From assembly GCA_903847525.1 (NCBI GenBank), contig CAINEA010000857.1, forward strand, positions 1-34,586: 34,586 bases of DNA, read 5' to 3'. This document shows positions 7,511 through 30,381 of this stretch, piece by piece (positions within the stretch are counted from its first letter, which is position 1; every line of letters starts with the position of its first letter). The stretch comes from an uncultured Acetobacteraceae bacterium (GTDB lineage: Bacteria; Pseudomonadota; Alphaproteobacteria; Acetobacterales; Acetobacteraceae). Below the pieces are notes generated by a model. The model was not told where the DNA came from, did no database searches, and was given only the letters and a program-made list of their open reading frames with translations. The translations under genes and the position numbers were made by a program.

Positions 7511-7814
7511 CCCTCGGGTAGACGCGCGGTCTAAACCGGTCCGGATCCCGCTACCGCATCCCCGCTTCGCCGACACCCATCGCGCCGCGCGACGGGACCT
7601 GTCCCGGCGAAGCGCCTCCGGCTCGCACCGCTGCCGTGTCACTTCGGGCACCGATCGCGCGAGCGCGATGGTGGCCCTTGCTCCCGCACCAGGCCGCGGT
7701 GCTTGGGGGCGGGGGGATCCAATTCCCGGTTTCTTCGGACCACACCCGAGGGAACGACGCCGGCACGGAGCCGGCGACCTTCCCAAGAACGGGGTGAACG
7801 AAAGGAATGAAATC
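7511..7814 (+). promoter_or_regulatory. Large structured upstream element of ssb (element A)
   Basis: Long-range closing helix CCCTCGGGT (7511-7519)/ACCCGAGGG (7744-7752); internal CGCTTCGCCG (7563-7572)/CGGCGAAGCG (7605-7614) and hairpin CACCGATCGCGCGAGCGCGATGGTG (7649-7673); then GACGCCGGCAC. Confidence 0.6.
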
Positions 7815-8288
7815 ATGTCTGGCTATCTGAACCGCGTGCAGCTGATCGGCAATCTGGGCCAGGAGCCCGAACTTCGCACAACGCAGAATGGCGGGCGAGT
7901 GGTGACACTCAGCATCGCCACCAGCGAAAGCTGGAAGGACGACCGCTCCGGCGAGCGACGCGAGCGCACGGAATGGCATCGCGTCGTCATCTTCAACGAG
8001 GGCCTTGGCAAGATCGCCGAGCAGTATCTGACCAAGGGTGCGAAGGTTTTCGTTGAGGGGGCACTGCGGACCCGCAAGTGGCAGGACCAGTCAGGTGCCG
8101 ATCGCTACAGCACGGAGATCCACCTGACGCCCTACAACGGCACGTTGACCTTCCTCGACAGGAAGAAGGACGGGGACCGGGCGCCCGGCGGCGATGATAC
8201 CGCTTCCGACCGGGCCATGACCGTTGGAGGCGGCGTGGGTGGCGGCAATCTGGACGACGAGATTCCTTTTTCCGCTTGCTGGCAGTAA
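7815..8288 (+). CDS. ssb: Single-stranded DNA-binding protein
   Basis: MSGYLNRVQLIGNLGQEPELRTTQNGGRVVTLSIATSESWKD...EWHRVVIFNEGLGKIAEQYLTKGAKVFVEGALRTRKWQDQSG; acidic tip DDEIPF followed by SACWQ. Confidence 0.95.
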   Translation: MSGYLNRVQLIGNLGQEPELRTTQNGGRVVTLSIATSESWKDDRSGERRERTEWHRVVIFNEGLGKIAEQYLTKGAKVFVEGALRTRKWQDQSGADRYSTEIHLTPYNGTLTFLDRKKDGDRAPGGDDTASDRAMTVGGGVGGGNLDDEIPFSACWQ

Positions 8289-9087: not shown

Positions 9088-9599
9088 GGAATCAACAGCT
9101 CCTACATACCTCCTGCAAACCACAGAGCGCGCGGGGACCGCAATTCGAGCCGCGTCGATCACATGTCGTTCTTCAGTCGGTCATCAGCAGAGAGCGACGC
9201 GACCCGTCGATCTCTATAGGGGCCAATCCGCCGTCGTCGCATTCAAGCTGACCGGGGCAGGGGCTGCGGACTTCCCTGCCCATCGCTCATCGTCCGACCA
9301 GCGCCAGAGGAGTGCGTGTACTATGCCTTTGCCTGACGTCATCCAGGCGCAGCCATCTCGGGGCGCAGCTCCAGCTTTGTTGGCAGAGCAGACGCGTCAC
9401 GGTTTCCCGGACCAGGGCGTCCAGTGACCGAAGCTGCGGGATTGGAAGTTTGATTTCGGCAGGTGCGCCGGCGCCGCAACCAGACGGAATGACAGCCTCG
9501 ATCGGCCCGCAGCGGAGGGACTTCAGGTCGTTGCGGATCGGCAGCTACGCCCCTCTCATCATTCACTGGCCTTGGGTTGCGGAGCCACTGCCGGCTTCA

Positions 9600-9854
9600 C
9601 CCCCTCGGATGCGTGCGGTTTAGGCCGGCCGCCGGCCGGCGAGGAAAGGGTGGGTCCTCGCCATGCTCCCCCGGATCAGGTCCGGGGTGCGCGTGGCTCT
9701 GGTCCCGCTCGCCACCCCATGCGAATGCGCATCGGGACCCCGTCTTCGCGCCTTTCACGCCACCCGCCTATGCCCGGCCAAGGCAACCGCACCCGAGGGG
9801 GAGGACGCCGGCACAGGGCCCGCGGACCTCTCGGGCAGTGAAAGAAATCAGATC
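9600..9854 (+). promoter_or_regulatory. Large structured upstream element of the 9855 gene (element B)
   Basis: Closing helix CCCCCTCGG (9600-9608)/CCGAGGGGG (9793-9801); internal GGCGAGGA/TCCTCGCC, CCCCGGA-tcagg-TCCGGGG, GGTCCCG/CGGGACC enclosing ATGCG-aatg-CGCAT; then GACGCCGGCAC as in element A. Confidence 0.6.
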
Positions 9855-10448
9855 ATGGCCACCACGACCGCCCCGAAGACCGCAAAGAAGTCCGCACCCC
9901 GCAGCCAGCCGACCCGCCAGGCTGTCACCCTCGAACTGGTCGTCGCGCATGCCCCGCACGCCGCACTGGCCGAAAACCTGTCCCGCACCTTCGGGGTCGA
10001 TCCCGTGGACTACCAGGCGATCCTGGAGAGCACCGAGGAACACGTCGCCCTCGCCGCGAAGGCCGTGGAACCCGCGCTGAACGAGAAGGCCATGCAGATC
10101 CACCTGCAGCGCATAGTCGGCAGCTTCGTCTCGTCCGCCTACGGCGCCGCCATGTTCTACGGGACCAAGGTCACCGAGGCCCGCGACCGTACCGTGGCCT
10201 CGGCCAATGACGATCGCGACGAGGACCGGGAAGGAGTGGCGGGGTTCGAGAGCAAGGCAGCGCGCGCCCGCCTTTTCGCCGCCCAGATGGGTCTTCAGGC
10301 CTATGCCCTGATGGCCGCTGCCGAGGGTGCTGTATCCGCCTACGCCCATATCACCGGCGAAGATTGGAAGCCCTACGAGGCTCCGATCGCCAGCCCGGTT
10401 ACCGTCGCCCGCCAGTCCGCGGCTACGGAGCTCGCCGCCTTCGGGTGA
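9855..10448 (+). CDS. Hypothetical protein
   Basis: MATTTAPKTAKKSAPRSQPTRQAVTLELVVAHAPHAALAENLSRTFGVDPVDYQAILESTEEHV...; good ORF with GAAAGAAATCAGATC leader. Confidence 0.7.
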   Translation: MATTTAPKTAKKSAPRSQPTRQAVTLELVVAHAPHAALAENLSRTFGVDPVDYQAILESTEEHVALAAKAVEPALNEKAMQIHLQRIVGSFVSSAYGAAMFYGTKVTEARDRTVASANDDRDEDREGVAGFESKAARARLFAAQMGLQAYALMAAAEGAVSAYAHITGEDWKPYEAPIASPVTVARQSAATELAAFG

Positions 10449-10594: not shown

Positions 10595-10825
10595 ATGCAG
10601 ATCGCCAAATGGGGCAACAGTCTTGCCGTTCGTCTTCCTGCCGCGGTGGTCGAGGCGCTCGAGTTGAAGGAAGGCGATGAGATCGAGATCCACATCGCCG
10701 ACGCGCGCGAGTTCATCGTGGCGCGGAAACCCGGTCGGGCGGAATTGCTGAAGCGTCTGCGCGCATTCCGCGGGCGTCTCCCGCCCGACTTCAAGTTCGA
10801 CCGGGATGAGGCGAATGCCCGGTAG
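10595..10825 (+). CDS. AbrB/MazE-fold antitoxin (VapB-like)
   Basis: MQIAKWGNSLAVRLPAAVVEALELKEGDEIEIHI, canonical AbrB-type N-terminus. Confidence 0.9.
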   Translation: MQIAKWGNSLAVRLPAAVVEALELKEGDEIEIHIADAREFIVARKPGRAELLKRLRAFRGRLPPDFKFDRDEANAR

Positions 10826-11219
10826 TTTCATCGATACCAACGTTCTCATCTACATGGCGTCTGGCGACCCGTTGAAGGCGGACCGGGCAGAGGAGATCGT
10901 CAGCAGTGGCGGAACGATCAGCGTGCAGGTGCTGAACGAGCTAACCAATGTCGCCCGCCGCAAAATGCTTATGTCATGGATCGACACGCATGCTTTCCTG
11001 TCGATGATCCGTGCCTTGCTCGCAGTCCACTCCGTCACCATCGAGATCCACGAAACCGGACTGGTGCTGGCGGAGCGCTACGGTTTTTCGACCTACGACG
11101 CGATGATTGCCGCTTCGGCACTGCATGGCGATTGCGATCTGCTCTGGTCGGAGGACATGCAGGACGGGATGGTGATCGAAAACCAGCTGCGCATTTCCAA
11201 CCCATTTCGCTCCAAATAA
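10806..11219 (+). CDS. PIN-domain toxin (VapC family)
   Basis: SFIDTNVLIYMASGD...SVQVLNELTNV...YGFSTYDAMIAASALHGDCDLLWSEDMQDG; PIN acidic residues; overlaps the antitoxin. Confidence 0.92.
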   Translation: MRRMPGSFIDTNVLIYMASGDPLKADRAEEIVSSGGTISVQVLNELTNVARRKMLMSWIDTHAFLSMIRALLAVHSVTIEIHETGLVLAERYGFSTYDAMIAASALHGDCDLLWSEDMQDGMVIENQLRISNPFRSK

Positions 11220-11417
11220 GTTGGAACATTCATAGAGACATTCCTCGCGGGGCAACGAGGTCATTCCCGAAAATATCGGCCCCGTCTGTGATGCGAGCCC
11301 TCCTCGCCCGATATGACCGATAATCAACGGACGGTCCGCGGACGCCGCCGCTGAACACGCATTGGAAAAGAAGCGCCTCCATTGCCGTTCCATTATCACG
11401 CCAACCGAGGTCGGGCC

Positions 11418-11629
11418 GGTTCAACCCCGCCTTTGGCGCCGCGCAGTGCGCGGCTTCGGCACGCAACCTTCAGCAGGGCCGGACTGCGGCAGGCACAGGC
11501 CAGAAGAAGGCCCGTCCCTGCCGCAGTCCGGCCCCGCCCGCTTGCATGCCTCAGGGGTTGAGCCGTCCCGAAGGTCGGCGTGCGCCGCTCCCGTCAGCGA
11601 TCGGGCTGACACTCACACGGGAGCAAGCC
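11418..11629 (+). promoter_or_regulatory. Multi-hairpin upstream element of the 11630 gene with Shine-Dalgarno sequestering stem
   Basis: Closing GGTTCAACCCC (11418-11428)/GGGGTTGAGCC (11554-11564); CCGCGC-agt-GCGCGG (11439-11453); 18-bp perfect GGGCCGGACTGCGGCAGG/CCTGCCGCAGTCCGGCCC (11476-11493/11517-11534); GCTCCC/GGGAGC enclosing GTCAGC/GCTGAC at 11587-11624. Confidence 0.65.
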
Positions 11630-11800
11630 ATGACCATCATCCGCTGCAGCGACAATGGATTTGATAACACGCGCATGACCGCCGCCGGTTACGAGATCAT
11701 CGCCATCGAGGATTACCACTGGGAAGATGGCCACACGGAGACGGAGATTCTCTGGGCAAAGGACGAACAGCCCATCGCAGATGGCGACCTGCCCTATTGA
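11630..11800 (+). CDS. Small acidic hypothetical protein (56 aa)
   Basis: MTIIRCSDNGFDNTRMTAAGYEIIAIEDYHWEDGHTETEILWAKDEQPIADGDLPY; GGGAG SD 6 nt upstream; terminator downstream. Confidence 0.65.
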   Translation: MTIIRCSDNGFDNTRMTAAGYEIIAIEDYHWEDGHTETEILWAKDEQPIADGDLPY

Positions 11801-11814
11801 CCATCGCACATCAT

Positions 11815-11841
11815 GCCGGGTCCGTCAGGGCCCGGCTTTTC
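11815..11841 (+). terminator. Rho-independent terminator
   Basis: GCCGGGTCC-gtca-GGGCCCGGC followed by TTTTCGTTT. Confidence 0.8.
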
Positions 11842-11916: not shown

Positions 11917-12306
11917 TCAGCCGAAGCCCGGCTTTCCATCAGACATCATGGACGGGGTGCAATGCGCATTGGGGTTTGCAGAAGTGACATATGGCTCAAG
12001 AACATCCGCGGGAATCCAGGCCGTGCGGCCGTCTAGAAATAATATCTCTGCAAACCCGTTCTGAACGTGCATTGGTGACCTTGCAATGATCGTCGCGGAC
12101 GCCTGCCCGATCTTGTCGTTGCCGTAGGATGGTTCCGCAAATACCAGAACATTGAATGGTCGGGCGATCAGCTGCTCGCGTGTAAGGTTCAGGCGCATAC
12201 ACACATAGCCTGGGATCGGTCTAATCACTGTCAGGCCCTGAGAGAGTGCCGGCCCGGCCAATGCGAGTAGGGTGAAAAGAGTTGTTGCGGCAGTGAATTT
12301 CATCAT
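11917..12306 (-). CDS. Secreted/periplasmic small protein, SH3-like pattern
   Basis: Signal peptide MMKFTAATTLFTLLALAGPALSQ; FAEILFLDGRTAWIPADVLEPY. Confidence 0.65.
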   Translation of the reverse strand: MMKFTAATTLFTLLALAGPALSQGLTVIRPIPGYVCMRLNLTREQLIARPFNVLVFAEPSYGNDKIGQASATIIARSPMHVQNGFAEILFLDGRTAWIPADVLEPYVTSANPNAHCTPSMMSDGKPGFG

Positions 12307-12315
12307 CAGTCTCCG

Positions 12316-13200
12316 CTATAGAAGGACCACCTGGTTTGCTGCGCTGCCGATCTTGGCGGCAACTGAAGCGCGCCATTGACCAACTGTTGTGGAGGGGGTG
12401 ATTCCGTTCTGGGCAATCTGAGCCGGTGTGTAATAGGCGGAAAGAATATCGCTCATATTGCGATCTGCCGGAGATCGGGCAAGATCTGAACCTACTGCCG
12501 CGCCAAAGTTGAAGTAGCCCCTTGTGTCCATCACTGAAGGGCTCGAGATTCCGGCGGCCTGCAAGGCGAGTGCCGCATTCTTGAGATCTTGAGCGGCGGC
12601 GATCGCCTGGTTAGCAGGGTCCATCTTACCGGCCAAGCTTGTGTCGATCGTCCCTGCCAATGACGGGTTCTGCGCCAATGCCTGCATTATATCAGCGGAG
12701 TAGGTGCCGTTCGTCATCTGGAAGGCGCCGCTGACAGTACTGCCCCCGACCGCTGCGATGCTCTGGCAGCCGGTTTCAAGCATGCATGTGGCGGCAATGG
12801 CGGAAGGGTTCACGCCCATCGCAGTTGCGTTGGATGCAGCGAGAGCACCCCAGGACCGGGAGTCCAGCGTCGTCAGCGCGTCGCTGCTTCCTGGTGGCGA
12901 AGCAGTTCCAGTCCCTGTGCCCGGGCCAGCCGGCGGCAGCACCGACGACGTGCCTACGGGCATGGAGTAGATTGGCAGGCCCGTTTCCATGAATGTGGGC
13001 ACCGGCAAGATGGGCGGTCCACCCGTTTGTGTCTCGGGCTGAACGTCCGATAGCGCCATCGCCGGCGCAAAGACCATCAAGGCAACGATGGCCGTGGCCG
13101 ATGTTCGACCTGACTCGAGTGTCCATGCTGAGCGCGCTGGTCCGGGACCAGGCAGGCGAGCTGGGTCAAGGCGTGTGTAAATCGCTGGTATGTATTGCAA
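12316..13200 (-). CDS. Secreted/membrane-anchored lysozyme/transglycosylase-like protein, probable TTG start
   Basis: TTG at 13200 is preceded by a perfect AAGGAGGT SD; signal-anchor SATAIVALMVFAPAMALS; AATCMLETGCQSIAAVGGSTVSGAFQMTNGTY resembles a transglycosylase catalytic-Glu region. Confidence 0.55.
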   Translation of the reverse strand: MQYIPAIYTRLDPARLPGPGPARSAWTLESGRTSATAIVALMVFAPAMALSDVQPETQTGGPPILPVPTFMETGLPIYSMPVGTSSVLPPAGPGTGTGTASPPGSSDALTTLDSRSWGALAASNATAMGVNPSAIAATCMLETGCQSIAAVGGSTVSGAFQMTNGTYSADIMQALAQNPSLAGTIDTSLAGKMDPANQAIAAAQDLKNAALALQAAGISSPSVMDTRGYFNFGAAVGSDLARSPADRNMSDILSAYYTPAQIAQNGITPSTTVGQWRASVAAKIGSAANQVVLL

Positions 13201-13392
13201 TGGGACCTCCTTCCGGATGTGTCCACAGTCTCCGCCGCGATCGCGCGAACCTGAACGCGTTTGCTCCAACAAAGGTGTGCAACGATCCACCACACAACGA
13301 CCGACCCGTTCTGCATCGCTGGGCGGCTCCTTCGTATGCACACCACTGAAGATTTGCGGCGGCAACTGGGTCCGTTCATTGCCGCGCAAACC

Positions 13393-15762: not shown

Positions 15763-16077
15763 ATGGACTCCGAACTTCGTAACTGGCTGGAGCGGCAGGA
15801 TGCCATACATCGACAAATAGCGGCTGATCAGAAACGGCAGGCCGACACCCTGACGATTATGGCCAGGGAACTGGCGAACCTGACCGAGTTGCTGACGCCG
15901 AAGACCGGCGACGGAGAGTCGGCACTCGAACAACTGCTCGCGCAATTGGCGGCCCAGGGAAAAGAACAGCTGACCCTGTTGCGACAGCTTGGTCAGCTGA
16001 CGAGCCGGATCGAGCGGCGCCTGTCCGGCACAAGCCCGCCGCCCCCGCCGGCGAATGGGCAGGTCCGGCTGCCATGA
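15763..16077 (+). CDS. Small coiled-coil mobilization accessory protein
   Basis: MDSELRNWLERQDAIHRQIAADQKRQADTLTIMARELANLTELL...; ATGA overlap with the relaxase. Confidence 0.55.
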   Translation: MDSELRNWLERQDAIHRQIAADQKRQADTLTIMARELANLTELLTPKTGDGESALEQLLAQLAAQGKEQLTLLRQLGQLTSRIERRLSGTSPPPPPANGQVRLP

Positions 16078-19000
16078 TCACCTTCCGGAAGCTTGCGGCG
16101 GCCCCGGAGGGCAGCGGGAAATTGATGCGCCGGTACTTCACCGAGAACACGCCTGAGCCGGCTCATGATCCCGCCCAGGGGGTAGAACGGCAGTTCGACC
16201 CAGGAGGCCGGCTGACGGCCTACTACACGTTGCGGGACAGCCGCGCGACCTGGCGGCCCGACATGCCGGCGGAGGTTGCCCAGGCGCTTGGAATCGATCC
16301 GCGTCAGATGCCGCGCGATATCGAACTGGATCGTCTTTTCGAGGGGCGGAGGGCCGACACCGGCGAGGCTTGGTCACCGCATGGCCGAAAGATCAGCGCC
16401 TATGATTTCACTGCCTCGCCGCACAAATCCGTCACCCTGGCGGCCGAGTTCGCACCGACAGCGGCCGAAGGGGCAGCAATCTGGCACAGCATCGACAAGG
16501 CCCACGACGCGGCAATGCGCTACATCGCACGAGAACTGGGGTGGGCCCGAAAAGGCGCGGGTGGCGAGGACGGGGCCGATCCCGGCGCGGTCGGTTGGGT
16601 CAGCTTCCGCCATCACGTTGCGCGGCCAACGTTGCCGGTACAGGACGGGCCAGGGGGTGCGACGTACCTTGCTGACGCGCCCGTGGACGGGGACCCCCAG
16701 GCGCACATCCACGGGCTCATGTTCAATGTGGTGGCGACCGAGAGCGGCCGGATCGGTTCGCTCGACACGCAGCGGCTGCACGCGCGGGTTCACGAGTTCG
16801 GCGCCTACTTTCAAGCGCGGCTGGCGGACGAATTGCGCCAGCTCGGTATCCGGGTTGCCTACGATGCAAACGAGCAGGCTGTCGTCATCACCGCAGTGCC
16901 GGCAGAGGCTTGCGCGACTTTCAGCAAGGGCCGGCGGCAGATCCTGAACAATGCCCGCGCTTTCGCCAGGGAGCAGGGCCTCGACTGGGACAGAATATCG
17001 GCCGAGCGGAAAATCGACATCCTGTCCGAGGCGGGCGTGGCTGCCAGGCTGGCAAAGCACGGCGGTAAGACCGATCGGGAGATCTGGAGGGCCCAGGCGG
17101 ACGCAATCAGCTGGAATCATAAGAGCGTCCTCGGCCAGGTCAGTCACCCCGCGCTGACAGATGGCGAACGGTTCGATAAGGCCTACCAGCGCGCAACGAA
17201 GCATCTCGCGCGCGAATTCCGGACCGCCGCGGTGATCGACCACGAACAGCTGCGCACCTATGCCGCCCGCGGCTTGATCGGCAGCGGCATCGCCGGCGGT
17301 GCCGACGATATCGACCGGGTGGTCGAACTGATCGAGCGGCGCGGTCTGCGCCTAATGGGTGAACACGTTGCTCTGGTGGTTGGTCTGGTGGACGGGACGG
17401 TGCGTGTGACCAACACCGCGCAGATCCGTATCGAGGAGAAGCTGGGCGATCAGGCGCATCAGGCAGCGCTTGACCGATCCGGCGCTCTGCCGGCGGCGGC
17501 AATTCGGGCTGCCGTCGACGCCTCGGGGCTCGATCGCCGGGGAGAGCCGGACCATTGGGAGTCACAGCAGGCCGCCATTTACGCGATGGGGCAGGGGGGT
17601 GCACTGACGCTGCTGACCGGCGTCGCCGGTGCGGGCAAGACGACACTTCTGTCGCCTCTGGTCGAGGCATGGAAGGCCGACACGCGCTTTGACAGCGCTG
17701 GCCGGGAGGTCGTGGGGCTGGCCGTTGCCTGGAAGCAGGCCGACGCGCTCAAGGATGCCGGGATTAAACGCGGTTTTGCGATGACACCCCTGCTGGACGC
17801 CATTGCCAAAGGTAAGTTCCAGCCGACGCGCAACACGGTGCTGGTGATCGATGAGGTGAGCCAGGTCGGTCCGCGACAGATGCTGGCTTTGCTGGAACTG
17901 CAAGCCGCGACCGGCATGACCATCAAGGCGCTCGGCGACCGGGAGCAGGCCCAGGCGATCGAGGCGGGCGACACAATTGAAATCATGCGCCGGGTTCTTC
18001 CGAAGTCGGCCCTGCCCGAATTGCTCAGCACCGTGCGTCAGGACAGCGAACGTGACCGCAAGATCGCCAACCTGTTCCGCGAAGGAAAGGCGGCCGAGGC
18101 GCTGGTCATGAAACGGGCGGACGGAACCGCAATGCTGGCCGGCGGCGATCAGGACCAGGTGATCGCTCAGATCGTCGATCTTTACATGGAACGGCGCGAC
18201 CACCTCCGGGCAGCGGGGTCACGCAAGCCGGTCACCATCTCGACGCTCACGAACGAGGATGCGGCCGACATCAGCCGGGTGGTTCGTGCACGGCTGCGGG
18301 AGCGCGGTGAGATTGCTCGAGAGGAGCGCCGATATGATGCCATCGATCAGCGGGGTGAAACCTACAACCTGCCGATTGCCGAGGGCGACAGCCTGCGACT
18401 GTTCCGGCGGACTTGGGCGCGGATCGACGGCAGGGGCGGTTCTATCGGTAACAACGGCGATATCGTGACGGTAGTCAGCCAGTCGGCGCAGGGCTTGGTT
18501 GTCCGGGCGAGTGACGGCCGGCTTGGTGAGGTCGAATGGCGGCGATTGTCCGACCCGAATACCGGGCGGCTGATGCTGGGCTTTGGGCACGCTTTGACCG
18601 TGGACTCCGCGCAAGGGATCACGTCCGCCGAGCACATCAATGCGCTGCCACGAGGCAGTGCCGGGATCACCTCGTTCAAGGGCTACGTGGCTGAGAGCCG
18701 CAGCACCGGCACGACGTGGACGATCATCTCCGAGGCGGCGGTACATGAGGCGGAGAAACGGAGCCGGGCGCTGGGCGACGCCGCTCCAGTGACGACCGAG
18801 GATCTCTGGCAGCGGATCGGGAAGGACATGTCGACTAAGCCGTACAAGGCTTTGGCGATCGATCTAGCCAAAGCGGCGCGGCGGGACCGCGAGGCGGCAA
18901 TCGCCTCATTCATAGAAACCAGTCGCAATACAGAGACGTTGCGGCTCGCCGGCCGGGATGTCGGTCGTGAGGTGCGCGGCCGGCTGCAGGCGGAGGCGGT

Positions 19001-19187
19001 CCGAAAACAGTTGGCACGTCACCTTCCGGCGCTGAATGAGGCGATCGCGAGGAACGGCGCGGAGTTGAAGGTTGCTTCGGCCGAAGTCGTGGTCCATCTG
19101 GCGGAAGTCAGGACAGAGGCCGAACTGGCCCGTCTTCGTTTGGAGGCTGCGGCAACACGAGCTCCTTCCCCGGGCGCTGGGTCATAG
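16074..19187 (+). CDS. MOBF conjugative relaxase-helicase (TrwC/TraI type)
   Basis: N-terminal TrwC relaxase (KISAYDFTASPHKSVTLAAEF, DGDPQAHIHGLMFNVV) and C-terminal RecD-like helicase (LLTGVAGAGKTTLL, VLVIDEVSQVGPRQM, LTVDSAQGITS). Confidence 0.95.
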   Translation: MITFRKLAAAPEGSGKLMRRYFTENTPEPAHDPAQGVERQFDPGGRLTAYYTLRDSRATWRPDMPAEVAQALGIDPRQMPRDIELDRLFEGRRADTGEAWSPHGRKISAYDFTASPHKSVTLAAEFAPTAAEGAAIWHSIDKAHDAAMRYIARELGWARKGAGGEDGADPGAVGWVSFRHHVARPTLPVQDGPGGATYLADAPVDGDPQAHIHGLMFNVVATESGRIGSLDTQRLHARVHEFGAYFQARLADELRQLGIRVAYDANEQAVVITAVPAEACATFSKGRRQILNNARAFAREQGLDWDRISAERKIDILSEAGVAARLAKHGGKTDREIWRAQADAISWNHKSVLGQVSHPALTDGERFDKAYQRATKHLAREFRTAAVIDHEQLRTYAARGLIGSGIAGGADDIDRVVELIERRGLRLMGEHVALVVGLVDGTVRVTNTAQIRIEEKLGDQAHQAALDRSGALPAAAIRAAVDASGLDRRGEPDHWESQQAAIYAMGQGGALTLLTGVAGAGKTTLLSPLVEAWKADTRFDSAGREVVGLAVAWKQADALKDAGIKRGFAMTPLLDAIAKGKFQPTRNTVLVIDEVSQVGPRQMLALLELQAATGMTIKALGDREQAQAIEAGDTIEIMRRVLPKSALPELLSTVRQDSERDRKIANLFREGKAAEALVMKRADGTAMLAGGDQDQVIAQIVDLYMERRDHLRAAGSRKPVTISTLTNEDAADISRVVRARLRERGEIAREERRYDAIDQRGETYNLPIAEGDSLRLFRRTWARIDGRGGSIGNNGDIVTVVSQSAQGLVVRASDGRLGEVEWRRLSDPNTGRLMLGFGHALTVDSAQGITSAEHINALPRGSAGITSFKGYVAESRSTGTTWTIISEAAVHEAEKRSRALGDAAPVTTEDLWQRIGKDMSTKPYKALAIDLAKAARRDREAAIASFIETSRNTETLRLAGRDVGREVRGRLQAEAVRKQLARHLPALNEAIARNGAELKVASAEVVVHLAEVRTEAELARLRLEAAATRAPSPGAGS

Positions 19188-19386
19188 TCCGATCTCACTC
19201 ACAGGCCGAAAGAATGTTCCGAGGAAGCCTAAGCACGAATCAAAGCGGTCTGCGGTGGGCGTCCACTCGCAATGGTGATCATCTGCAGTCCACTGTCCGC
19301 CCGGAACCCTAATTGCGAACGAGTCATGTTATCGCTGGATGAAAACCGGGGGTCACATCACCGAGAAAACCCGAATTACCTCCGTA

Positions 19387-19402
19387 TGTGAACTACCTCA
19401 CA
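19387..19402. promoter_or_regulatory. CRP/FNR-type consensus-like site
   Basis: TGTGA-actacc-TCACA, about 66 nt upstream of the 19468 ATG. Confidence 0.4.
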
Positions 19403-19467
19403 CTTATTCACACCTAGACGGCAATAAGATCCGATCTGAATCATCCTAGACAAGGAAGGTGCAGGAC

Positions 19468-21126
19468 ATGGAGAGTGATCCGACCCATGTAGTCGCTACC
19501 TACGCATTTTGTGTCGCACTGGTGATCCTCTACGCGTCTGCCCGCTTCAACACACCTGTCACTAACCGTTCGTCAACAGTACAGCTGTGGTATTGGCAAG
19601 GGTTGCTGGCCTATATCGTCTCCTGCGTCACTCTGTTTGGCGTGCTTTCGATTGCGCTTGAGCAACCAGCGCTTCGCAGTTTCCTGTTAAAGTTTCCTCT
19701 TCCGGCGAGCGTGGCGGAAGGCGCTTTAGCTCAGCCATCTCCTCGGCAGGTCGAGACAATCATGTCGATACCGCCAGCACTTGCCGCAACATTAGTAATG
19801 ACCGCGCTGTTGCCGAGCGTGCCTTACGTCAAGAAACTCGATGGTGCGCTACTGGCGTTTTTCCTGCGAATGGCCTGCATCCCGGCGGAGGTCACGCGCC
19901 GTTCGAGGATACTGAACCACAACAACCTTCGGCTTTCGGGTTCAGACTTGGCAGAGATAACATCGTTCATCCATGATACACCGATCCCCAACGAGGCGAC
20001 GGAGTTTCTTCGCGCCAAAGCTGAGACAGCCTGGGAGGATTCCGAGCTGCGGTTTACGAAAGTCCTGCTGGTTTTCCGTCGACTCGACGCCCTTCAGGAA
20101 GAGCCGCGCTACGCCAGATTCTTTAGTGATAACGCGGTGGAATATCGGGGCTTTCGCGACTCCATGACCGATTTTGCCGGGCGCGCGGTAAAGGGCCTGA
20201 CGATGGCCAGACGCCTGCGCGAAAACGCGGCCAAATCGGAGTACGAGGAGTTGATCAGCGAGAAGCGTGAGATTTTCAAGCGAGAGTGCATCGAACGATT
20301 TGCGGCTGCGGGTCTGTTTCTGGCTCGGGCTATACTGCAATGCGAACTGAGCGAGCGCGACGTGCGCGATGGACTACGGAAAATCGGTTTCGAGGCGGTT
20401 TCGATCGACCGGCCCTACATACCCATTCATCAACTTGCAGCCCTTTGCGTCGGCATCCTGGTGTATCTGCTGCTAGCCGGAGTGGTATTGCATCCGCCCG
20501 TGAACGATGCCCGGGCAGCTGAATTCAAGTGGGTTCCATTTCTGATCGCACTTGCTCACGTGTTGACGATTGGGCTGACGCTCTGGCTCATGCAGACGGT
20601 TCCGTGGGCGCGTCGGAAAGCCGGTGGCATTCGTCCTTTTGCTTCGTACATCGTTTGCGGCTTTCTGGGGGCGGCGCTGACCGTCGTGCTCTGCGTGCTG
20701 TGGGATCTTGCTCGGGTCGGAACACTGCCGGATGGTGCGCGCCTAGTGTTTCTCCTACCCTTTGTCATCCTTTGCGGACTACTCTGCATGGTCGTCGCCT
20801 TTGCCTGCGATGACCGGCCACCGAGAGTGCCGGAACCGCTGTGGTTCCGTGGTCTGGAAGCCCTCGGTTGCGCGTTGGCGATGGCGTTTGTAGCCTGGCT
20901 GCTGATGCAGCTGTTTCCCATTCCCGATAACATGCCGAACCCGCCGCCGTCCTGGGTGCGCGTATTGTTACCGGCCGGAACGGCACTGGTAGTCGGGTTC
21001 TTTATTCCTGAGATCTTCCGTTCCGGCCTGCGTAGGACAGGTGCAGGAGATCACTCTGTGGATTCAGGGCTCTCCGGTCAACTTGAGCCCGAGCCCACGC
21101 GTAGTCAGTGGGAGATGGCAGATTGA
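19468..21126 (+). CDS. Uncharacterised multi-pass membrane protein
   Basis: Hydrophobic stretches at both ends (e.g. LLAYIVSCVTLFGVLSIAL, LAALCVGILVYLLLAGVVL, FLIALAHVLTIGLTLWLM, IVCGFLGAALTVVLCVLW, LVFLLPFVILCGLLCMVVAFA, LGCALAMAFVAWLLMQL) around a ~200-aa soluble middle. Confidence 0.7.
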   Translation: MESDPTHVVATYAFCVALVILYASARFNTPVTNRSSTVQLWYWQGLLAYIVSCVTLFGVLSIALEQPALRSFLLKFPLPASVAEGALAQPSPRQVETIMSIPPALAATLVMTALLPSVPYVKKLDGALLAFFLRMACIPAEVTRRSRILNHNNLRLSGSDLAEITSFIHDTPIPNEATEFLRAKAETAWEDSELRFTKVLLVFRRLDALQEEPRYARFFSDNAVEYRGFRDSMTDFAGRAVKGLTMARRLRENAAKSEYEELISEKREIFKRECIERFAAAGLFLARAILQCELSERDVRDGLRKIGFEAVSIDRPYIPIHQLAALCVGILVYLLLAGVVLHPPVNDARAAEFKWVPFLIALAHVLTIGLTLWLMQTVPWARRKAGGIRPFASYIVCGFLGAALTVVLCVLWDLARVGTLPDGARLVFLLPFVILCGLLCMVVAFACDDRPPRVPEPLWFRGLEALGCALAMAFVAWLLMQLFPIPDNMPNPPPSWVRVLLPAGTALVVGFFIPEIFRSGLRRTGAGDHSVDSGLSGQLEPEPTRSQWEMAD

Positions 21127-21184
21127 CAGAGGCCGCACCGATTCGTGCGTAACTGGAGGGCGGGCCTCATGTTGCGTCGTTCCG

Positions 21185-23602
21185 CTATGTGTTCAGGGTG
21201 GCACATGAGGCAGCATTCAAGGCACCGATCAGGCGTCGCAACCGTGAACCCAACTCGTCCGGTCCCATGGGCGGCGGAGTGGGCAGGCTGATTGAAGCCG
21301 CCGCCGCGTCGCGTTCACCCATCGCCGCCCGCGCGTTCTCTCTCGCGTCGTCGCGTGGTACACCTGCCAGCAACTCAATCGCCGCGTGGAGGGCAAAGCG
21401 CCTAGCGTCGATGGGGTCCTGTGGCTCCTTGGGGCCGGAACGGAGCACCGGTTCTCCCTCGTGTCCATTCAGCATCGGGTCGAATACTGTGACGATCCGG
21501 CCTGAAATCGAAGCGGCATGGTCCCCCGACAAGGCGTCCTCGGCCAAGGCGCTCGTCAAATCATCGGCTATCGGCCCGGCGGCCGCGGCAAGTCCGGCAT
21601 CCACACGCACGTCAATCGTGGCCTCGCTGTCATCCTGGTTTGCGAAACCATCCAGGAAGGCGGTCAGGATGGGACAGCAAGGCGTGAGCGCCCGGCCGGT
21701 CTCGGGGTGGGTTTCCTGGCCCAGCTTGCCGCGATTGATCTTCTCCCTCATCCCCGCGACCCGCTCGGCGTCCTGGCAGAAATCATCGAGGGGAGCTGTC
21801 AGCGCCAGCGGTCGGTTCAGGCGGATGGGCCCACCCCTGGGCAGCACCGCGTGGAACAGTCTGGCGTAAATCCTTCGGCCGGCGAACAGCACGATTGCTT
21901 CGCCCTCGATGAGCTTTTGCAGATCCTGCCAGTCGACACGCGCGACCTGGCGCAATTCCGCCGCCTGAGCCTCACGGTAAGCTCCGTCCGATGCGCCGTG
22001 ATACGACAGGGCCTGCGTGACGTAGGTCTGGCCGGCGGTCTTCTCCAGCCACTCGCGGGTGCGGTTGCTGTCCTGCTGGCGCATGGCGATTGTGAGATTG
22101 GCGTTGCCGAGCAGCGAGTAGGTCTTCTCGCCCAGACGGGCCCAGATACCGCCGACCTCCTGAAAGGCAAGCCAGAACATCATGTTCAGCCCGCGACCCA
22201 TGGCCAGCATCCGGTCCATGCCGTTCGTTGCGTAGTAGGCCAGCTCGTCGAATACGACATGGAACGGCCCCTGACCCATGCCGGGTCGGGCAACGAAGAT
22301 TTCCTTGGGGTCGCCCTCCAGCCGCGCGCCGAGCAGCTGCGCCATCATACCGCGCAGCGAGGCGACGACGATCTTGCCCAACGCAGCCAGACTATCATCG
22401 GAGTTCTCCAGCGCAGGCAAGTTGACCACCAGGATGCGGCGATTCAGCACAATGTCGCGCATGTCGATATCGCCGGCATCCACCTTGAAGATATGCCCCA
22501 GGCTGACGGCGAGCTGGGTAAAGGCGGCAGTGAAATGGAACAGCGCGAAGCCGTGCTGCTTGAACGGCTCATCGGTCTTCTGCTCGTTATAGGGCAGGTC
22601 GATGTTGTAGCCCGGGATCTCGCCGAGATAGGCCAGCAGCGGATAGAGCAGATCCCCGGGAATGTCCGGCACGGCAATCGTTCGTGGGGTCGTGGCTCCG
22701 GGGTCTCGCACCAGGAACTGCTTGAGCGTCGCCAGCGTCCAGATGCTGCGCAGTTCCAGTGACTGGCGGATCTGCTCGATGTTGATGGTGATGCTTTTGT
22801 GGTCGCGCATCCAGACCAGTACGGGTGCCATTGTTCCGAGCAGGGCGACGGCGCGGCCACGGAACACGCCGTTGGCATCGGACGGGCTGGAATCGCCGAG
22901 CTGGCTGACCAGCAGTTCGCGGATCGCATCGGCATTGCCGGTCGAGAACGGGTTGAAGGTGTTCGACTGGCTGTCCAGCACGAGACCGCCCAGCCCGACG
23001 CCGGGCAGGCTGGCGGTCAGGAAATTGAGCACGAACACATCGTCCTCGCGGCCGAACCGGCGGGCCAGGGCCAGGATGTCGCCATAGAGCTCGTTGCTGG
23101 CCTTGCCATCCACCAGCACGAAGCCGCTGCCGTGAGTGAGTGCGTTGGCCAGAAAGCTGACGATTGCGGTCGTCTTGCCGGCGCCGGTCGTGCCGGGAAT
23201 GGTGCCGTGCTGGCGGCAGTCTTCGTTGGTGAGCCAAAGTTCCTGGCCCGTAAGCTGGTCGTTGCCGATGAAGATATCGCCCGCTGCTCGCCGCGGTTTG
23301 CGGGTTGCCGGGTCCGGCAGATTCCAGTCGCAGCACCCGGCACTGCGGGGGAGACGGATTGGCAGGGTGAGGCGCCGGGTCAGCACCCAGATGGTGTAGA
23401 ACAGGCCGATGAGTGCTGCCGGAGTCGCGGAAGCCGGGGCAAGATAGGCCGTGCCGGCGAGCAGGGTCAGCACAAAGCCGGAGGCTTGGCTGCGCAACCC
23501 CTGCGACAGGCGGGTTGTCAGCGGGCGGACATCCCGAAAACCCTGCGCGCCGGTACGCTCGAACTGCGCCTGCGGACCGACGATCTCGCGCGGGATGCTC
23601 AC
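21185..23602 (-). CDS. dotL: DotL/IcmO (IncI TrbC)-type coupling ATPase
   Basis: GTIPGTTGAGKTTAIVSFLANALTHGSGFVLVDGKASNELYGDILALARRFGREDDVFVLNF; VVFDELAYYATNGMDRMLAMGRGLNMMFWLAFQE. Confidence 0.9.
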   Translation of the reverse strand: MSIPREIVGPQAQFERTGAQGFRDVRPLTTRLSQGLRSQASGFVLTLLAGTAYLAPASATPAALIGLFYTIWVLTRRLTLPIRLPRSAGCCDWNLPDPATRKPRRAAGDIFIGNDQLTGQELWLTNEDCRQHGTIPGTTGAGKTTAIVSFLANALTHGSGFVLVDGKASNELYGDILALARRFGREDDVFVLNFLTASLPGVGLGGLVLDSQSNTFNPFSTGNADAIRELLVSQLGDSSPSDANGVFRGRAVALLGTMAPVLVWMRDHKSITINIEQIRQSLELRSIWTLATLKQFLVRDPGATTPRTIAVPDIPGDLLYPLLAYLGEIPGYNIDLPYNEQKTDEPFKQHGFALFHFTAAFTQLAVSLGHIFKVDAGDIDMRDIVLNRRILVVNLPALENSDDSLAALGKIVVASLRGMMAQLLGARLEGDPKEIFVARPGMGQGPFHVVFDELAYYATNGMDRMLAMGRGLNMMFWLAFQEVGGIWARLGEKTYSLLGNANLTIAMRQQDSNRTREWLEKTAGQTYVTQALSYHGASDGAYREAQAAELRQVARVDWQDLQKLIEGEAIVLFAGRRIYARLFHAVLPRGGPIRLNRPLALTAPLDDFCQDAERVAGMREKINRGKLGQETHPETGRALTPCCPILTAFLDGFANQDDSEATIDVRVDAGLAAAAGPIADDLTSALAEDALSGDHAASISGRIVTVFDPMLNGHEGEPVLRSGPKEPQDPIDARRFALHAAIELLAGVPRDDARENARAAMGERDAAAASISLPTPPPMGPDELGSRLRRLIGALNAASCATLNT

Positions 23603-23626
23603 CCCAATTCTCCCCGGTCGCCTGCG

Positions 23627-24016
23627 TCAATCAAGACCGAACGGGCTGCGAGGCGCGGCTTGCGGTGGTGGCGTGCCCGGAGGCTGGCTCGCAACCGGCG
23701 GCCGGGCGGGAAAGCGCAGTGCGGGCGACAGCTCATCCCGTCCTGGTGAGGAAAGCAGGGGCGGGGGTGGCGGCGCGACGGGCCGAGGGAGGGAGGTCCC
23801 GGCTTCGGCCGGCTGGGCGGTCATGCCACGGACTACATAGCCGCTGCCGAATAACAGGATCGCGGCCGATGCCAGAAGCAACGGATGGCGGCGGAGCAGC
23901 GGCGCGGAGCCGGCGTCGGAAATGGCGGCGTGGCTTCCGGGCACCACGGCGTCCGGGCCAAAGTGGATGTGGATTTGCGCGGTCTCGGGCACGATGAGCT
24001 GCAGAGGGTTGGACAT
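23627..24016 (-). CDS. Proline-rich single-TM T4SS-associated protein
   Basis: TM LLLASAAILLFGSGYVVRG followed by a Pro-rich tail; between dotL and dotM. Confidence 0.6.
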   Translation of the reverse strand: MSNPLQLIVPETAQIHIHFGPDAVVPGSHAAISDAGSAPLLRRHPLLLASAAILLFGSGYVVRGMTAQPAEAGTSLPRPVAPPPPPLLSSPGRDELSPALRFPARPPVASQPPGTPPPQAAPRSPFGLD

Positions 24017-24097
24017 GCATGGATTCCTCAACGCGTGGGAAAGGCGGGAACGACGTAGCGACAAGGCAGAGAGCGTGAGCTGATGCGATACGGCCGG

Positions 24098-25282
24098 TCA
24101 TCCGGTGGCCCGCCCGACCGGCCTTTGGCCGTACGAATTGTGTGGGCTGGCGGTGAGCAACGCGGCGATCGCACGATCCACCGAGGGTGTGGGCATTCTA
24201 TGGCCGATCTCCATTTCGACGGCCCAATGGTCGCGTGCGCCGATTGCTTCCGCACAGGGGTTGGGATGGTAGGTCCGGCTCTGTCCCTCGGACGGGAAGC
24301 CAAGCGAATGCAGTGCGTACCAGAGCCTTCGGTCCACCAGCTTCAGCCCGTTGAAGGCTGCTGGCGGAAGAACCCCGGCGCGTCGCCGCGCCTCGGTCAG
24401 CAAACTCATCAACGCCGGCGCGGTAAAAGCATGCCGGGCTGCGATCTTGCCGGCCTCGACGCACCCTGCGTCTCCCAGGATGGCGTCGGCCTGGGAGACG
24501 AGGGAAACAGGCAGGCTGAGCGGGGCAGAGGGTCCGGTGTCGGGTTCGCGGCCCGCCGGACGGAGCGCTTCGGCCATGTCCCCGAGCAGTGCGAGGGCTT
24601 CACCGCGCCGCTGAGCCAGGTGCAACGAGAAGGCCGCAAACAACACGCGCACATGCGGGGCTGCCTTTCTTGGCCCCTGCCAGGGGGCACCAAGCTGACG
24701 CACCAGCTCGGCCCGGATCACCTTTGGGTCATGGCTACCGCCCCGGCCCACGCCGAACCGATCGAGCCACTCGACCGGATGGAGCGCTGGATCAGCAGGA
24801 CGCGGATCGCCGGGGCTCAACGGGGAAAGACGTAGCTTGCGCGTGGCAAAGGCCGCGATGGTTCGGAAGGACCCGGCCTGCTCGGCGATCAGGCCGTCGA
24901 GGTCGAGACGCCGGGTGAAGCGGGCTGACGTGGACCTGCTAAAGCAGACGATCGCGAGCAGGAAGAGAAGCCCCGCGACGGGGATGCGAAAGAAAGCGCC
25001 GATGGATGTCGCTGCCGCGCCGATGCCGTTGAGGGTCACGCGGCTGTAGTCCGCGGTCAGCAACTGCCGATCGAGGCTTTCGTAATCGTCCGTGAAGCCG
25101 CCGATCGCCGCGATGTGCCAATGGGCGAGCAGCGCGAAGCCGCGGCTGATCTCCGCGTGGTAATAGGTCCAGGCGAGCCAGGAATAGATCGCAAGCCCGC
25201 CGGCGATCACCATCAGGCTGAAGAATGTGTAGTCATCACCGGAGGGCCAGCTGGAACGGCCGCTGGAGCTGCTTGGCTGCAT
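24098..25282 (-). CDS. dotM: DotM/IcmP (IncI TrbA)-like protein
   Basis: N-terminal TMs; LFAAFSLHLAQRRGEALALLGDM; C-terminal RLWYALHSLG...AEAIGARDHWAVEMEIGHRMPTPSVDRAI. Confidence 0.85.
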   Translation of the reverse strand: MQPSSSSGRSSWPSGDDYTFFSLMVIAGGLAIYSWLAWTYYHAEISRGFALLAHWHIAAIGGFTDDYESLDRQLLTADYSRVTLNGIGAAATSIGAFFRIPVAGLLFLLAIVCFSRSTSARFTRRLDLDGLIAEQAGSFRTIAAFATRKLRLSPLSPGDPRPADPALHPVEWLDRFGVGRGGSHDPKVIRAELVRQLGAPWQGPRKAAPHVRVLFAAFSLHLAQRRGEALALLGDMAEALRPAGREPDTGPSAPLSLPVSLVSQADAILGDAGCVEAGKIAARHAFTAPALMSLLTEARRRAGVLPPAAFNGLKLVDRRLWYALHSLGFPSEGQSRTYHPNPCAEAIGARDHWAVEMEIGHRMPTPSVDRAIAALLTASPHNSYGQRPVGRATG

Positions 25283-25285
25283 GGC

Positions 25286-25840
25286 TCAGTTCCTCGCTGC
25301 GACCTGGCGGGGCACATCAAGAACCGGAACTGAAAATGTTGCCGCGGCATTGTGCTGCGCCTGATCACGGAGTCGTAGGGTCCATTCCAGGACCTTGCGG
25401 AGATAAATGTCCTTATGGACCGGGTTGTGCGAGTGATAGATGCCGACGCCGGACCAGAAATCTCCGCCGGCTTCGTCCAGTGCCTGACGAAGGATCCAGG
25501 TGCCACCCTCGATGTTGGCACAGAAATTATCGCGCAGCGCGGCATAGGCGGCCTGTGGTGTTGCGTGCCAGTGCCGGGCAATCTGCGGCACCCAGATTGT
25601 ATTGACCTGCATCGGGCCGATGTCGACGGAATTGTTGGTGTTGAAGCTGACCGCGCCGAGTCGGCCGCCCTCGACCCTGAGCAGGATGAGGATCAGCGAC
25701 TGCGGAAGACGATAGCTGGAGGCGGCAGCGGCGATGCATCCATGGACCCGCTTTTCGGCCGGCGATAGGGTTTCGTCGGCATGCGCCTCCGAGACCAGGA
25801 GCATCGACGCGGCAAGACCCATAACAAGAAGCCGGATCAT
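25286..25840 (-). CDS. Lytic transglycosylase (conjugation peptidoglycan hydrolase)
   Basis: Signal peptide; SLILILLRVEGGRLGAVSFNTNNSVDIGPMQVNTIWVPQIARHW. Confidence 0.85.
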   Translation of the reverse strand: MIRLLVMGLAASMLLVSEAHADETLSPAEKRVHGCIAAAASSYRLPQSLILILLRVEGGRLGAVSFNTNNSVDIGPMQVNTIWVPQIARHWHATPQAAYAALRDNFCANIEGGTWILRQALDEAGGDFWSGVGIYHSHNPVHKDIYLRKVLEWTLRLRDQAQHNAAATFSVPVLDVPRQVAARN

Positions 25841-26253
25841 GGGCTCGCTCCGGCGCCCGTGAACACCGCCGGCAGCCGCTCGAAGACCGCTTCCCACTGC
25901 CTGCGAAGGTCGTTCACGAGCAGACCATTGGGCCCGGTCGCCTGGGTGGCCGCCTCGATCACCGACAGCATCACGGTCGAGAAGGTGCCCGACCCGACCG
26001 CATGGAGACGACGGCTGAGCAGGGCCTCCGGGTCCGGCCGGATATCCAGCGCGAACCCCTTCCCGGACGCTTCCCGCCACACAGCCTCGCCAGCGACCAG
26101 GAAAACCGGCAGCACCCCGGCCGGATCGCGCGCCGAGGCGAACGGCAGAACATGGGTCTGTGCTGTCGCACGGTCATGGAAGGCAAGGGGTTTCCCAGCC
26201 CGCGTCAGATAGGCCTCCAGCGTGCGGCCGAGTATCGCGGGATCGAGCCTCAT
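25837..26253 (-). CDS. Conserved T4SS-operon hypothetical protein
   Basis: 138-aa ORF with ATGA-type overlaps on both sides. Confidence 0.6.
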   Translation of the reverse strand: MRLDPAILGRTLEAYLTRAGKPLAFHDRATAQTHVLPFASARDPAGVLPVFLVAGEAVWREASGKGFALDIRPDPEALLSRRLHAVGSGTFSTVMLSVIEAATQATGPNGLLVNDLRRQWEAVFERLPAVFTGAGASP

Positions 26254-26501
26254 GCCAGCCGCCGGCGATGCCAGGCGGGAACGGCGGACCGCACTGGGCC
26301 AACCAGCCAGCGGCGGACGAGCCGGGCAACAGCCGGAACGGTCAGGCCGAACCAGCTGATCATCGAGAAGAAGATGGTGCAACCGACTGCCAGATAGAAC
26401 GTCCACCATGCCCACCACACGGCGAACAACAGCAGTGGCAGGCAGGCCCGCGCATCGAGGATCACCAGCATCACCGGCCTGGCCGTGTAGCGCCACATCA
26501 A
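26250..26501 (-). CDS. icmT: IcmT/TraK-family small membrane protein
   Basis: RYTARPVMLVILDARACLPLLLFAVWWAWWTFYLAVGCTIFFSMISWFGLTVPAVARLVRRWLVGP. Confidence 0.8.
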   Translation of the reverse strand: MMWRYTARPVMLVILDARACLPLLLFAVWWAWWTFYLAVGCTIFFSMISWFGLTVPAVARLVRRWLVGPVRSAVPAWHRRRLA

Positions 26502-27673
26502 CCGATCTCCCTCCGTTCGTGAGCCGCAACCTTCTCGCTGATGCGACCCTGCTCCAGCGACGCGCGAATAGCGCTCGCATAGGACTGACCCTGTTCGTGA
26601 ACTGCTCGCCGGGTGATGGTCGGCCAGTCGGACGGGCTGCTTTGCAGCAATGTCGTTCGCAACGGCGCATCGAACACCAGGATCTCACGCAACGCCGTCC
26701 GGCGGCCGTCCATGGAGATGGCCAGCCGCTGGTTGACGATCAGGCGCAGCGACTGTGCCACTGACGTGATCAGGTTGTCGCGCTCGTCGGCCGCGCAGAG
26801 GCTGGCGATCCGCTGCATCGTGAGCGAGACGTCATTGGCGTGGATCGTTGTGGTGAGCGCATGTCCGGAGATCGCCGCCTGAATCGATGCCCCCATCGTC
26901 GTACTGTCGCGGCACTCGCCGACGATGATGTCGGTCGGCTCGCGGCGCATGCAGCCGCGAATGAACGCCTCGAAGGACGGCAGATCACGCGGGATCTCGG
27001 TCTGGCAGATCGTCGAGGATGGGCTCTTCACCCGGTCGAGCAGGAACTCAACCGGCGCTGCCGCCTCGGCGATGTTATGGTGACCATAGGGGTCCTGCAG
27101 CTTGGCGACGGTCATGCCGGCGATCAGCGTCGATTTGCCGGAGCCGGTGCCGCCACTGACGATGACCATGCCCTCGCGCGGGCGAAACGCCGCGAGTATG
27201 GCAGGCTCGGCAAGCTGTGCCTCCAGGCTCGGCGGCAGGTCGGCGATCGGCCGGAGCACGATGTTGGCCCCGGCACGGCGGCTGGTGCGGATCGGGGTCG
27301 CGTTCAGGCGAAACCGCAGCCGGCGGGAGCGGTCGATCGGAATCTCGTAGGATACGTCGAAGTCCGAACCACCTTGCAGGCGCGCGGTGCCGTCGGCGCC
27401 ATAGAGATGGTTGGCGATCTGTGCGATCTGCGCCTCGTCAAGCGTCGATACAGTCGCACGGCGATTGCGGCCGTGCACTCTTATCCAAATCGGATGGCCG
27501 GTCTGGAACGCGACGCGCGAGGCCTCCAGCTCGAACGCCCAGCGCAGCAGAGAGTCCAGGCCCGGTGCGTATTTGCGGGCTTCCGTGACCCAGGTCAGCC
27601 CCTCGTCCGGCCAGAAGGTGCTTGGAGACGAGGTGCCGTCAGAGGCTTCGAGGAGAGAGAGGCTATCGAGCAT
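26498..27673 (-). CDS. dotB: DotB/TraJ-type secretion ATPase
   Basis: PilT/VirB11-like: MVIVSGGTGSGKSTLIAGM, IIVGECRDSTTMGASIQAAISGHALTTTIHAN. Confidence 0.92.
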   Translation of the reverse strand: MLDSLSLLEASDGTSSPSTFWPDEGLTWVTEARKYAPGLDSLLRWAFELEASRVAFQTGHPIWIRVHGRNRRATVSTLDEAQIAQIANHLYGADGTARLQGGSDFDVSYEIPIDRSRRLRFRLNATPIRTSRRAGANIVLRPIADLPPSLEAQLAEPAILAAFRPREGMVIVSGGTGSGKSTLIAGMTVAKLQDPYGHHNIAEAAAPVEFLLDRVKSPSSTICQTEIPRDLPSFEAFIRGCMRREPTDIIVGECRDSTTMGASIQAAISGHALTTTIHANDVSLTMQRIASLCAADERDNLITSVAQSLRLIVNQRLAISMDGRRTALREILVFDAPLRTTLLQSSPSDWPTITRRAVHEQGQSYASAIRASLEQGRISEKVAAHERREIG

Positions 27674-27682
27674 CGCCGTTGC

Positions 27683-28642
27683 TCATTGCGGACAATTGGC
27701 GCCGGGAGCCCAGCGACGCCGGTTGGCCTGCAAGCCCGGCTGGTCGGTGATGCGGATCGTGCGGTCGCCGACGCGCATCTGATCGCGTCCTCCCTCGACC
27801 GCCTGGTTCTGGAACGCGACGGTCGGCGGCTCAACCAGTCTGGCGCGCAGCAGCACGCGGTAACGCGCCATGCCGACAATGTCGCGTTGCAGCCGGCCCA
27901 GATCGGAAAGGAAGATTTCGACGGCCTGCTTCTCTCCCTGCGCCCAGCCCTCGGCCACGAACTTGTTCCACCAGGCGACTTCTGCCTTGGTGCGTGGCAG
28001 GGCGGCGTCTGCCGGACGCGGCGGGTCGCCCCAGGTGCGAACCAGATAGGACCGCCAGTTGGGTGGTGCGGAGGTCAGCTCCGCCGCGCGGGTGATCTGG
28101 TAAAGGCACGACGTTTCTCGGGCGACCTGGCCGCCATCGCCCAGTGCGAAGGCCATCTGTGCCGCGGTGACGACAGGCGGCTTCAGCAAGGTCTGCCCGG
28201 TCCCGGCGGGTAGCACGAGCACACGGAAATCGTAGGTGCTGTCTAGCTGCGCCTCGTTCCGACGCAGCATTTCGTTCAGCGCGAAAGCGCGCGCGGCGAG
28301 GCCGCCCTGGGCGCCGTAGATGCGGCCGGAGTCACGCAGCACATCAGCTCGTCCAGCCTCAAGACCGTCGCCTTGCTGGTCGCCGGGGCGGGTCGCCTGC
28401 AGCTTTTCGAGAGACGGCGGTCGCTCGCCGCCAACGATCGTCGGAAGGTCCTTGGCCCCCGTGATGGGCCGGTTGAGCGGATTGGCGAGCGTCGCGGCCG
28501 CGCGATCCGCTTCGCCAGGAGGCAGGGTTGGCGGCACCTCCCATCGCGTGACGGGTTCGGCCGCGCGGGCTGGATGTGTCGTGGCCAGCACGACGGCGAC
28601 GCAGGCGGCAAGGGGGACGGCCAGGCCGAACCGATCAGCCAT
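27683..28642 (-). CDS. dotC: DotC/TraI-type T4SS protein
   Basis: RADVLRDSGRIYGAQGGLAARAFALNEMLRRNEAQLDSTYDFRVLVLP... RTKAEVAWWNKFVAEGWAQGEKQAVEIFLSDLGRLQRDIVGMARYRVL. Confidence 0.88.
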   Translation of the reverse strand: MADRFGLAVPLAACVAVVLATTHPARAAEPVTRWEVPPTLPPGEADRAAATLANPLNRPITGAKDLPTIVGGERPPSLEKLQATRPGDQQGDGLEAGRADVLRDSGRIYGAQGGLAARAFALNEMLRRNEAQLDSTYDFRVLVLPAGTGQTLLKPPVVTAAQMAFALGDGGQVARETSCLYQITRAAELTSAPPNWRSYLVRTWGDPPRPADAALPRTKAEVAWWNKFVAEGWAQGEKQAVEIFLSDLGRLQRDIVGMARYRVLLRARLVEPPTVAFQNQAVEGGRDQMRVGDRTIRITDQPGLQANRRRWAPGANCPQ

Positions 28643-30334: not shown

Positions 30335-30381
30335 TTACTCTGGTCGTGCTGTGCGCATTTATATGCTGAATATAGTGCGCA
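30328..30381. promoter_or_regulatory. Three TGCGCA palindromes at exact 24-bp intervals at the ccdA start/promoter
   Basis: TGCGCA at 30328, 30352 and 30376; the first two extend to TGCGCATTTA. Confidence 0.6.

Follow-up and report, generated by a model that had tools for sequence, protein, structure and literature searches.

The window analysed here (34,586 nucleotides) is the whole of contig CAINEA010000857.1, from an uncultured Acetobacteraceae bacterium. Positions 16074-34172 combine a TrwC-type relaxase with a Dot/Icm-type transfer cluster, which has genes for DotM, a TraG/TrwB-like coupling protein, a T2SSE-type ATPase and two DotD-like proteins. A small gene and the structured leader that precedes it lie next to these DNA-transfer genes, which probably belong to a mobile element. 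The leader is about 230 bases long, begins near 11397 and lies directly 5' of the ATG at 11630. It runs through P1, P2, P3, HA, HB and HC, returns via P3, P2 and P1, and finishes with HD and the Shine-Dalgarno (SD) arm. Genes for a MazE-like antitoxin and a PIN-domain toxin (10595-11216) are located immediately 5' of it, and the MAG locus L044 has the same pair in front of its leader. The features are as follows.

9855: upstream ORF, recurring beside the leader in several homologues
11397-11406, plus strand: P1 5' arm CACGCCAACC, outer closing stem, pairing with 11573-11582 with one A.C mismatch
11411-11415, plus strand: P2 5' arm TCGGG, pairing with 11567-11571
11417-11428, plus strand: P3 5' arm CGGTTCAACCCC
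11429-11437, plus strand: HA, small hairpin GCC-TTT-GGC (97.8% of cells paired in the alignment)
11438-11454, plus strand: HB, hairpin GCCGCGC-agt-GCGCGGC (92.6% of cells paired in the alignment)
11455-11553, no strand assigned: HC, interchangeable central hairpin, here of type A, within which lies the perfect 18-bp stem
11554-11565, plus strand: P3 3' arm GGGGTTGAGCCG
11567-11571, plus strand: P2 3' arm CCCGA
11573-11582, plus strand: P1 3' arm GGTCGGCGTG
11587-11592, plus strand: anti-SD arm GCTCCC, pairing with GGGAGC
11593-11610, plus strand: HD, hairpin GTCAGC-gatcgg-GCTGAC, adjoining the SD
11619-11624, plus strand: SD arm GGGAGC, in which GGGAG is the SD, 6 nt 5' of the ATG at 11630
11630-11800, plus strand: 56-aa ORF MTIIRC...DLPY, predicted beta-alpha-beta-beta
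11815-11836, plus strand: terminator-like hairpin after the stop of the 56-aa ORF, with TTTTCGTTTG following it
11920-12306 and 12319-13389, minus strand: convergent ORFs, also recurring beside the leader in several homologues

An earlier note on this DNA had put the start of the element at 11418, which is too late, as it overlooked the outer stems P1 and P2. The pairings that it listed are present: the arms GGTTCAACCCC (11418-11428) and GGGGTTGAGCC (11554-11564) with one U.G, the CCGCGC-agt-GCGCGG hairpin (11439-11444/11448-11453), the perfect 18-bp stem (11476-11493/11517-11534), and GTCAGC (11593-11598) with GCTGAC (11605-11610) nested inside the GCTCCC/GGGAGC stem that holds the SD. It was also right that this is not a simple terminator, since no terminator-like site (a GC hairpin and then a T run) was found within the leader, the sole one being that after the ORF. 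A similar GC hairpin appears 3' of the stop in almost all the copies with sequence there. No promoter match was found. Compared with dinucleotide shuffles, the plus strand of the leader folded with a z of -6.8 and the minus strand with a z of -9.05, values reached in neither case by any of 200 shuffles. The better fold of the minus strand is due to the central hairpin HC, which retains G.U pairs on that strand.

The model of the 56-aa protein obtained with AF2 was fairly confident (pLDDT 84.7, pTM 0.56). Its sequence matched no family in Pfam, NCBIfam, PHROG or PADLOC, and the fold searches gave nothing below E 0.001, only weak resemblances, to a DUF4177 phage protein and to portions of GNAT acetyltransferases. 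An alternative start in the same frame at 11546, which would give 84 aa, was rejected, as the frame is open for only about 62 codons in G231, G083, G098 and G057, and comparison of the reading frames thus favours the 56-aa start. Just before the stop there is a C-terminal tail, [DE][LIVQ]P[FY] or a close variant, which is common to small proteins with different cores and may be a recognition tail.

The earlier note had proposed a search for conserved structure upstream of homologues, and the same architecture was indeed found in 22 full copies. These came from 16 of 20 selected genomes with the covariance model R3, most of them having helped to build the model, so that they match by construction. 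There were one to three whole elements per genome, all of them 5' of a small ORF, and each full copy precedes an ORF of about 51-60 aa. So far the full copies are confined to a single bacterial family, Acetobacteraceae where named. A DNA search located the element on two plasmids of Rhodovastum atsumiense (RHOApb and RHOApc of strain G2-11), and further genomes of this family also have it. Scanning contigs with the protein family recovered Acetobacter estunensis, A. musti, A. oeni, Acidisoma silvae and MAGs labelled only Proteobacteria, and in all four named species the same leader sits 5' of the small ORF. When we started from the protein and searched 300 genomes of the family, 24 small-ORF matches emerged in 17 genomes, and a full leader was upstream of 20 of these matches. 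Another one (G057) had only the 3' part of the leader, at a contig edge, and in G258:C124 the upstream DNA was absent. The two weakest matches lacked a leader, one of them (G198) without an ATG and pseudogene-like and the other (G031, E 0.001) likely due to chance. In G006 the ORF after the leader shares only 20% identity with the window protein and has a tail of the same kind (IPENELPF). Its P1 is perfectly compensated (AATGCTGGCC/GGCCAGCATT) despite the diverged ORF.

Outside these sets, a class-wide search matched only the genome of the window itself, under strict filters and with five candidates scored per genome, which leaves absence elsewhere unproven. No relative of the leader was found in the viral contigs searched. 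A pattern search allowing three mismatches gave mostly chance matches according to a reversed control, and the near matches in G288:C4, G096 and G195 were rejected by eye, having no leader continuation. A covariance model of the core alone (R1), from which the central hairpin had been removed, was dropped for its poor alignment. No Rfam family matched the window or nine homologous loci at the curated score, and the sub-threshold matches were generic microRNA-type hairpins on HC. Among the titles and abstracts listed by literature searches, nothing specific described such a leader.

Other structured stretches were seen in the same surroundings. One, long and GC-rich, lies at 9580-9855, 5' of ORF 9855, with a type-B-like hairpin at 9653-9705, and resembles the stretch 5' of the homologous ORF in G182 (L015). 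As a member of the leader family it was rejected by R3 (12.7 bits, E 0.089). By eye, the region 7614-7815, 5' of ssb, ends in a motif much like 9790-9855 (CACCCGAGGG...GACGCCGGCAC...GAAAGRAATNARATCATG), and the two are perhaps a second leader family. A diverged scaffold relative that has stems like P1 and P3 was located 5' of the homologue of ORF 9855 in G017 (L128, G017:C141:1198-1379, minus strand), flanked by an additional long inverted repeat (GTGTCTGTTCCCCGGTATCGCCCCGTCGTGA...).

The comparison of the copies indicates that the folded scaffold is conserved beyond its sequence. In an alignment with HC removed (A2), 93.8% of the pair cells were standard and 27 cells had changed on both sides, compared with 8.8 +/- 2.1 in shuffles and at most 6 in slid controls. 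In the concatenated arms of the 22 copies (A6, 18 distinct sequences), both-side changes rose to 45 cells, where shuffles gave 16.4 +/- 2.7 and slid controls no more than 9. None of the 500 shuffles or of the slid controls scored as high as the scaffold, bearing in mind that these arms were excised with anchors taken from the structure itself and that the shuffle statistics ignore kinship. P1 exists in at least five compensated versions (CACGCC/GGCGTG, AAAGCC/GGCTTT, AATGCC/GGCATT, AAGGCC/GGCCTT and ACCGCC/GGCGGT). In P2, TCG/CGA is invariant and the fourth pair goes from G-C to U-A in some copies. In HD, four core pairs hardly vary and three pairs are compensated, e.g. TCAGC/GCTGA to CCAGC/GCTGG. 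This is the conserved multi-stem domain with compensatory changes expected of a translational riboswitch, and the pattern supports a structured leader under selection. Inverted repeats in DNA covary too, a point against reading it as an RNA leader. The U.G pair of P3, retained in 11 of the 18 distinct copies, would suit an RNA of the plus strand.

The occlusion of the SD is less uniform. In the window the SD is predicted to be paired with a probability of 1.00, equalled by none of 30 shuffles, and opening it would cost 9.3 kcal/mol, when most SD-led starts in the window require 1.5-6.5 and one, that of a DotD-like gene, requires 10.1 kcal/mol. Among homologues the SD stem appears as GCTCCC/GGGAGC, ATTCCC/GGGAAT, ATTCCC/GGGAGT or TTCCC/GGGAA. 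It is reduced to 3 bp or rearranged in G076b/c, G258b and L047/L050, and weak in G053. Masking is strong in about two thirds of the copies and weak in the others, and SD pairing averages 0.83 across the copies vs 0.77 in GC-rich shuffles. Since GC-rich shuffles mask the SD as well, masking alone is weak evidence and was rejected as sole evidence. Taking 13 representatives in aggregate, which are not independent, the pairing of the SD arm was reached by 3 of 2000 shuffles. By these folding predictions, masking is real in the window and common among the copies, not universal. In some lineages the 3' end of P1 shares bases with the anti-SD arm (e.g. GCCCGGCATT with ATTCCC) and therefore P1 and the SD stem may compete there; in the window they are four bases apart (11583-11586).

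The translational switch suggested by the earlier note is thus plausible. What stood of it is the structured leader under selection, with its compensatory changes and constant place before the start codon. Homologues lacking the pairing were to count against it. The scaffold comes through this comparison clearly and the SD stem with a mixed outcome. The universal P1-P3 scaffold next to a lineage-variable SD pairing, together with the very stable 5' structure, might instead point to a leader whose target is transcription or the stability of the mRNA, by attenuation, RNase protection or as a binding platform, the SD stem being secondary. We consider this unlikely, as HD, next to the SD, also shows conservation and compensatory changes and the interior of the leader is free of terminator-like sites.

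The central hairpin behaves in a different way from the scaffold. Type A is carried by the window, G231, G083, G098, G076 and G288, and type B, at the same position, by G017, G143, G078, G182, G447, L047, G053 and G006. By eye, G076b/c and G258b apparently have a third version. Types A and B are unrelated hairpins with opposite strand preference: type A has no G.U on the plus strand and 4-9 on the minus, where all its wobbles are, and the minus strand of its copies folds better, whereas the wobbles of type B are mostly on the plus strand. Since two unrelated types swap at one position, the 18-bp stem emphasised by the earlier note exists but is part of a replaceable insert and not the core of the finding. 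HC can be explained as an interchangeable passenger, for a single RNA function would not easily account for both strand preferences. Type B is also found away from the leader, e.g. on the largest contig of G143 and partly at 9653-9705 of the window. A stand-alone type B hairpin was seen in the window's own genome (L131, G000:C758:6624-6740), with a relative in similar surroundings in G057 (L123). Stand-alone type A copies lie near the convergent conjugation genes and keep the same strand preference as type A in the leader.

These dispersed hairpins, found elsewhere in several genomes and filling the HC position, and the second long inverted repeat around the diverged relative in G017 would also agree with a DNA-level palindrome (a protein-binding or recombination site, REP/MITE-like) lying 5' of the gene by chance. 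This is quite unlikely: with the exception of that weak relative, the full element is always directly 5' of an SD and ATG in the 20 genomes, the mismatched pairs of HC are strand-biased and P3 keeps a U.G. The wobbles of type A, that of the window included, are on the strand that encodes the convergent genes, and the stand-alone copies near such genes share this preference, as would be expected of a functional RNA on the minus strand, either antisense or the 3'-end RNA of the convergent conjugation genes. We regard this as improbable, because type B copies favour the plus strand, the core P1-P3 does not clearly favour either strand, the element goes with the plus strand ORF and the terminator-like hairpin stands between the element and the convergent genes. 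That a GC-rich intergenic sequence merely folds so by chance, for which the SD pairing of GC-rich shuffles could be invoked, is already refuted by the z of the plus strand fold and by conservation and compensation across genera, and its probability is negligible.

The best explanation, to which we give a probability of about 0.6, is a cis-acting structured leader that represses translation of a protein of about 55 aa, encoded next to a conjugation cluster of the Dot/Icm type. This RNA control element, probably an undescribed one, would hide the ribosome-binding site of the small gene. The leader, the 56-aa ORF and the terminator-like hairpin would form a one-gene unit, transcribed from just upstream of P1. 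P1-P2-P3 would close and organise a junction carrying HA, HB and the exchangeable insert HC. Right after P1, HD and its flanking arms would pair the SD to the anti-SD arm, leaving translation off or low, and P1 may be coupled to the SD stem. The SD would be freed once the HD region opens, whether through protein binding, a second RNA, a ligand or temperature. More tentatively, the copies could represent a new class of multi-stem leader RNA in conjugative elements of Acetobacteraceae, controlling a family of small proteins that all finish in the tail [DE][LIV]P[FY]. In such a class, unrelated dispersed hairpins of either strand sense could take the place of the central arm at the junction while the scaffold is retained. 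The leader adds an undescribed but well-supported candidate to the catalogue of bacterial cis-regulatory RNAs. It also draws attention to a family of small proteins that accompanies conjugation genes of the Dot/Icm type and has no entry in the protein-family libraries searched. Besides, the swapped central hairpins are a natural experiment that separates the scaffold from the replaceable parts of a leader.

There are known systems with some of these properties. REP/MITE-like sequences are dispersed palindromes, and HC alone, swappable and in its type B also present elsewhere in the genomes, is partly of this kind. The whole element is not, being tied to one gene position, with a compensated scaffold and without the many dispersed, gene-independent copies. 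In the repY-repZ system of IncI plasmids, a leader is controlled by RNA occlusion of an SD. The analogy would extend to the probable mobile element around the leader, which carries an IncI/Dot-Icm type transfer system, although no leader peptide or pseudoknot is shown here and the gene matches no replication initiator family. RNA thermometers such as ROSE and fourU hold the SD in a hairpin just 5' of the start codon, as is predicted here. Unlike them, the SD helix of the window is short but GC-rich and perfect, its opening cost (calculated at 37 C) argues against easy melting, and there is beside it a large conserved junction that a thermometer does not need; no ROSE or fourU match to this leader was found in Rfam. 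Riboswitches and ribosomal-protein leaders that act on translation, such as the candidates in PMC7247131, are conserved multi-stem structures with a last hairpin that occludes the SD. The leader described here has this same organisation, but the gene behind it, which points to no ligand, encodes a small uncharacterised protein and is not a ligand-pathway or ribosomal gene, and the leader is so far known from one bacterial family.
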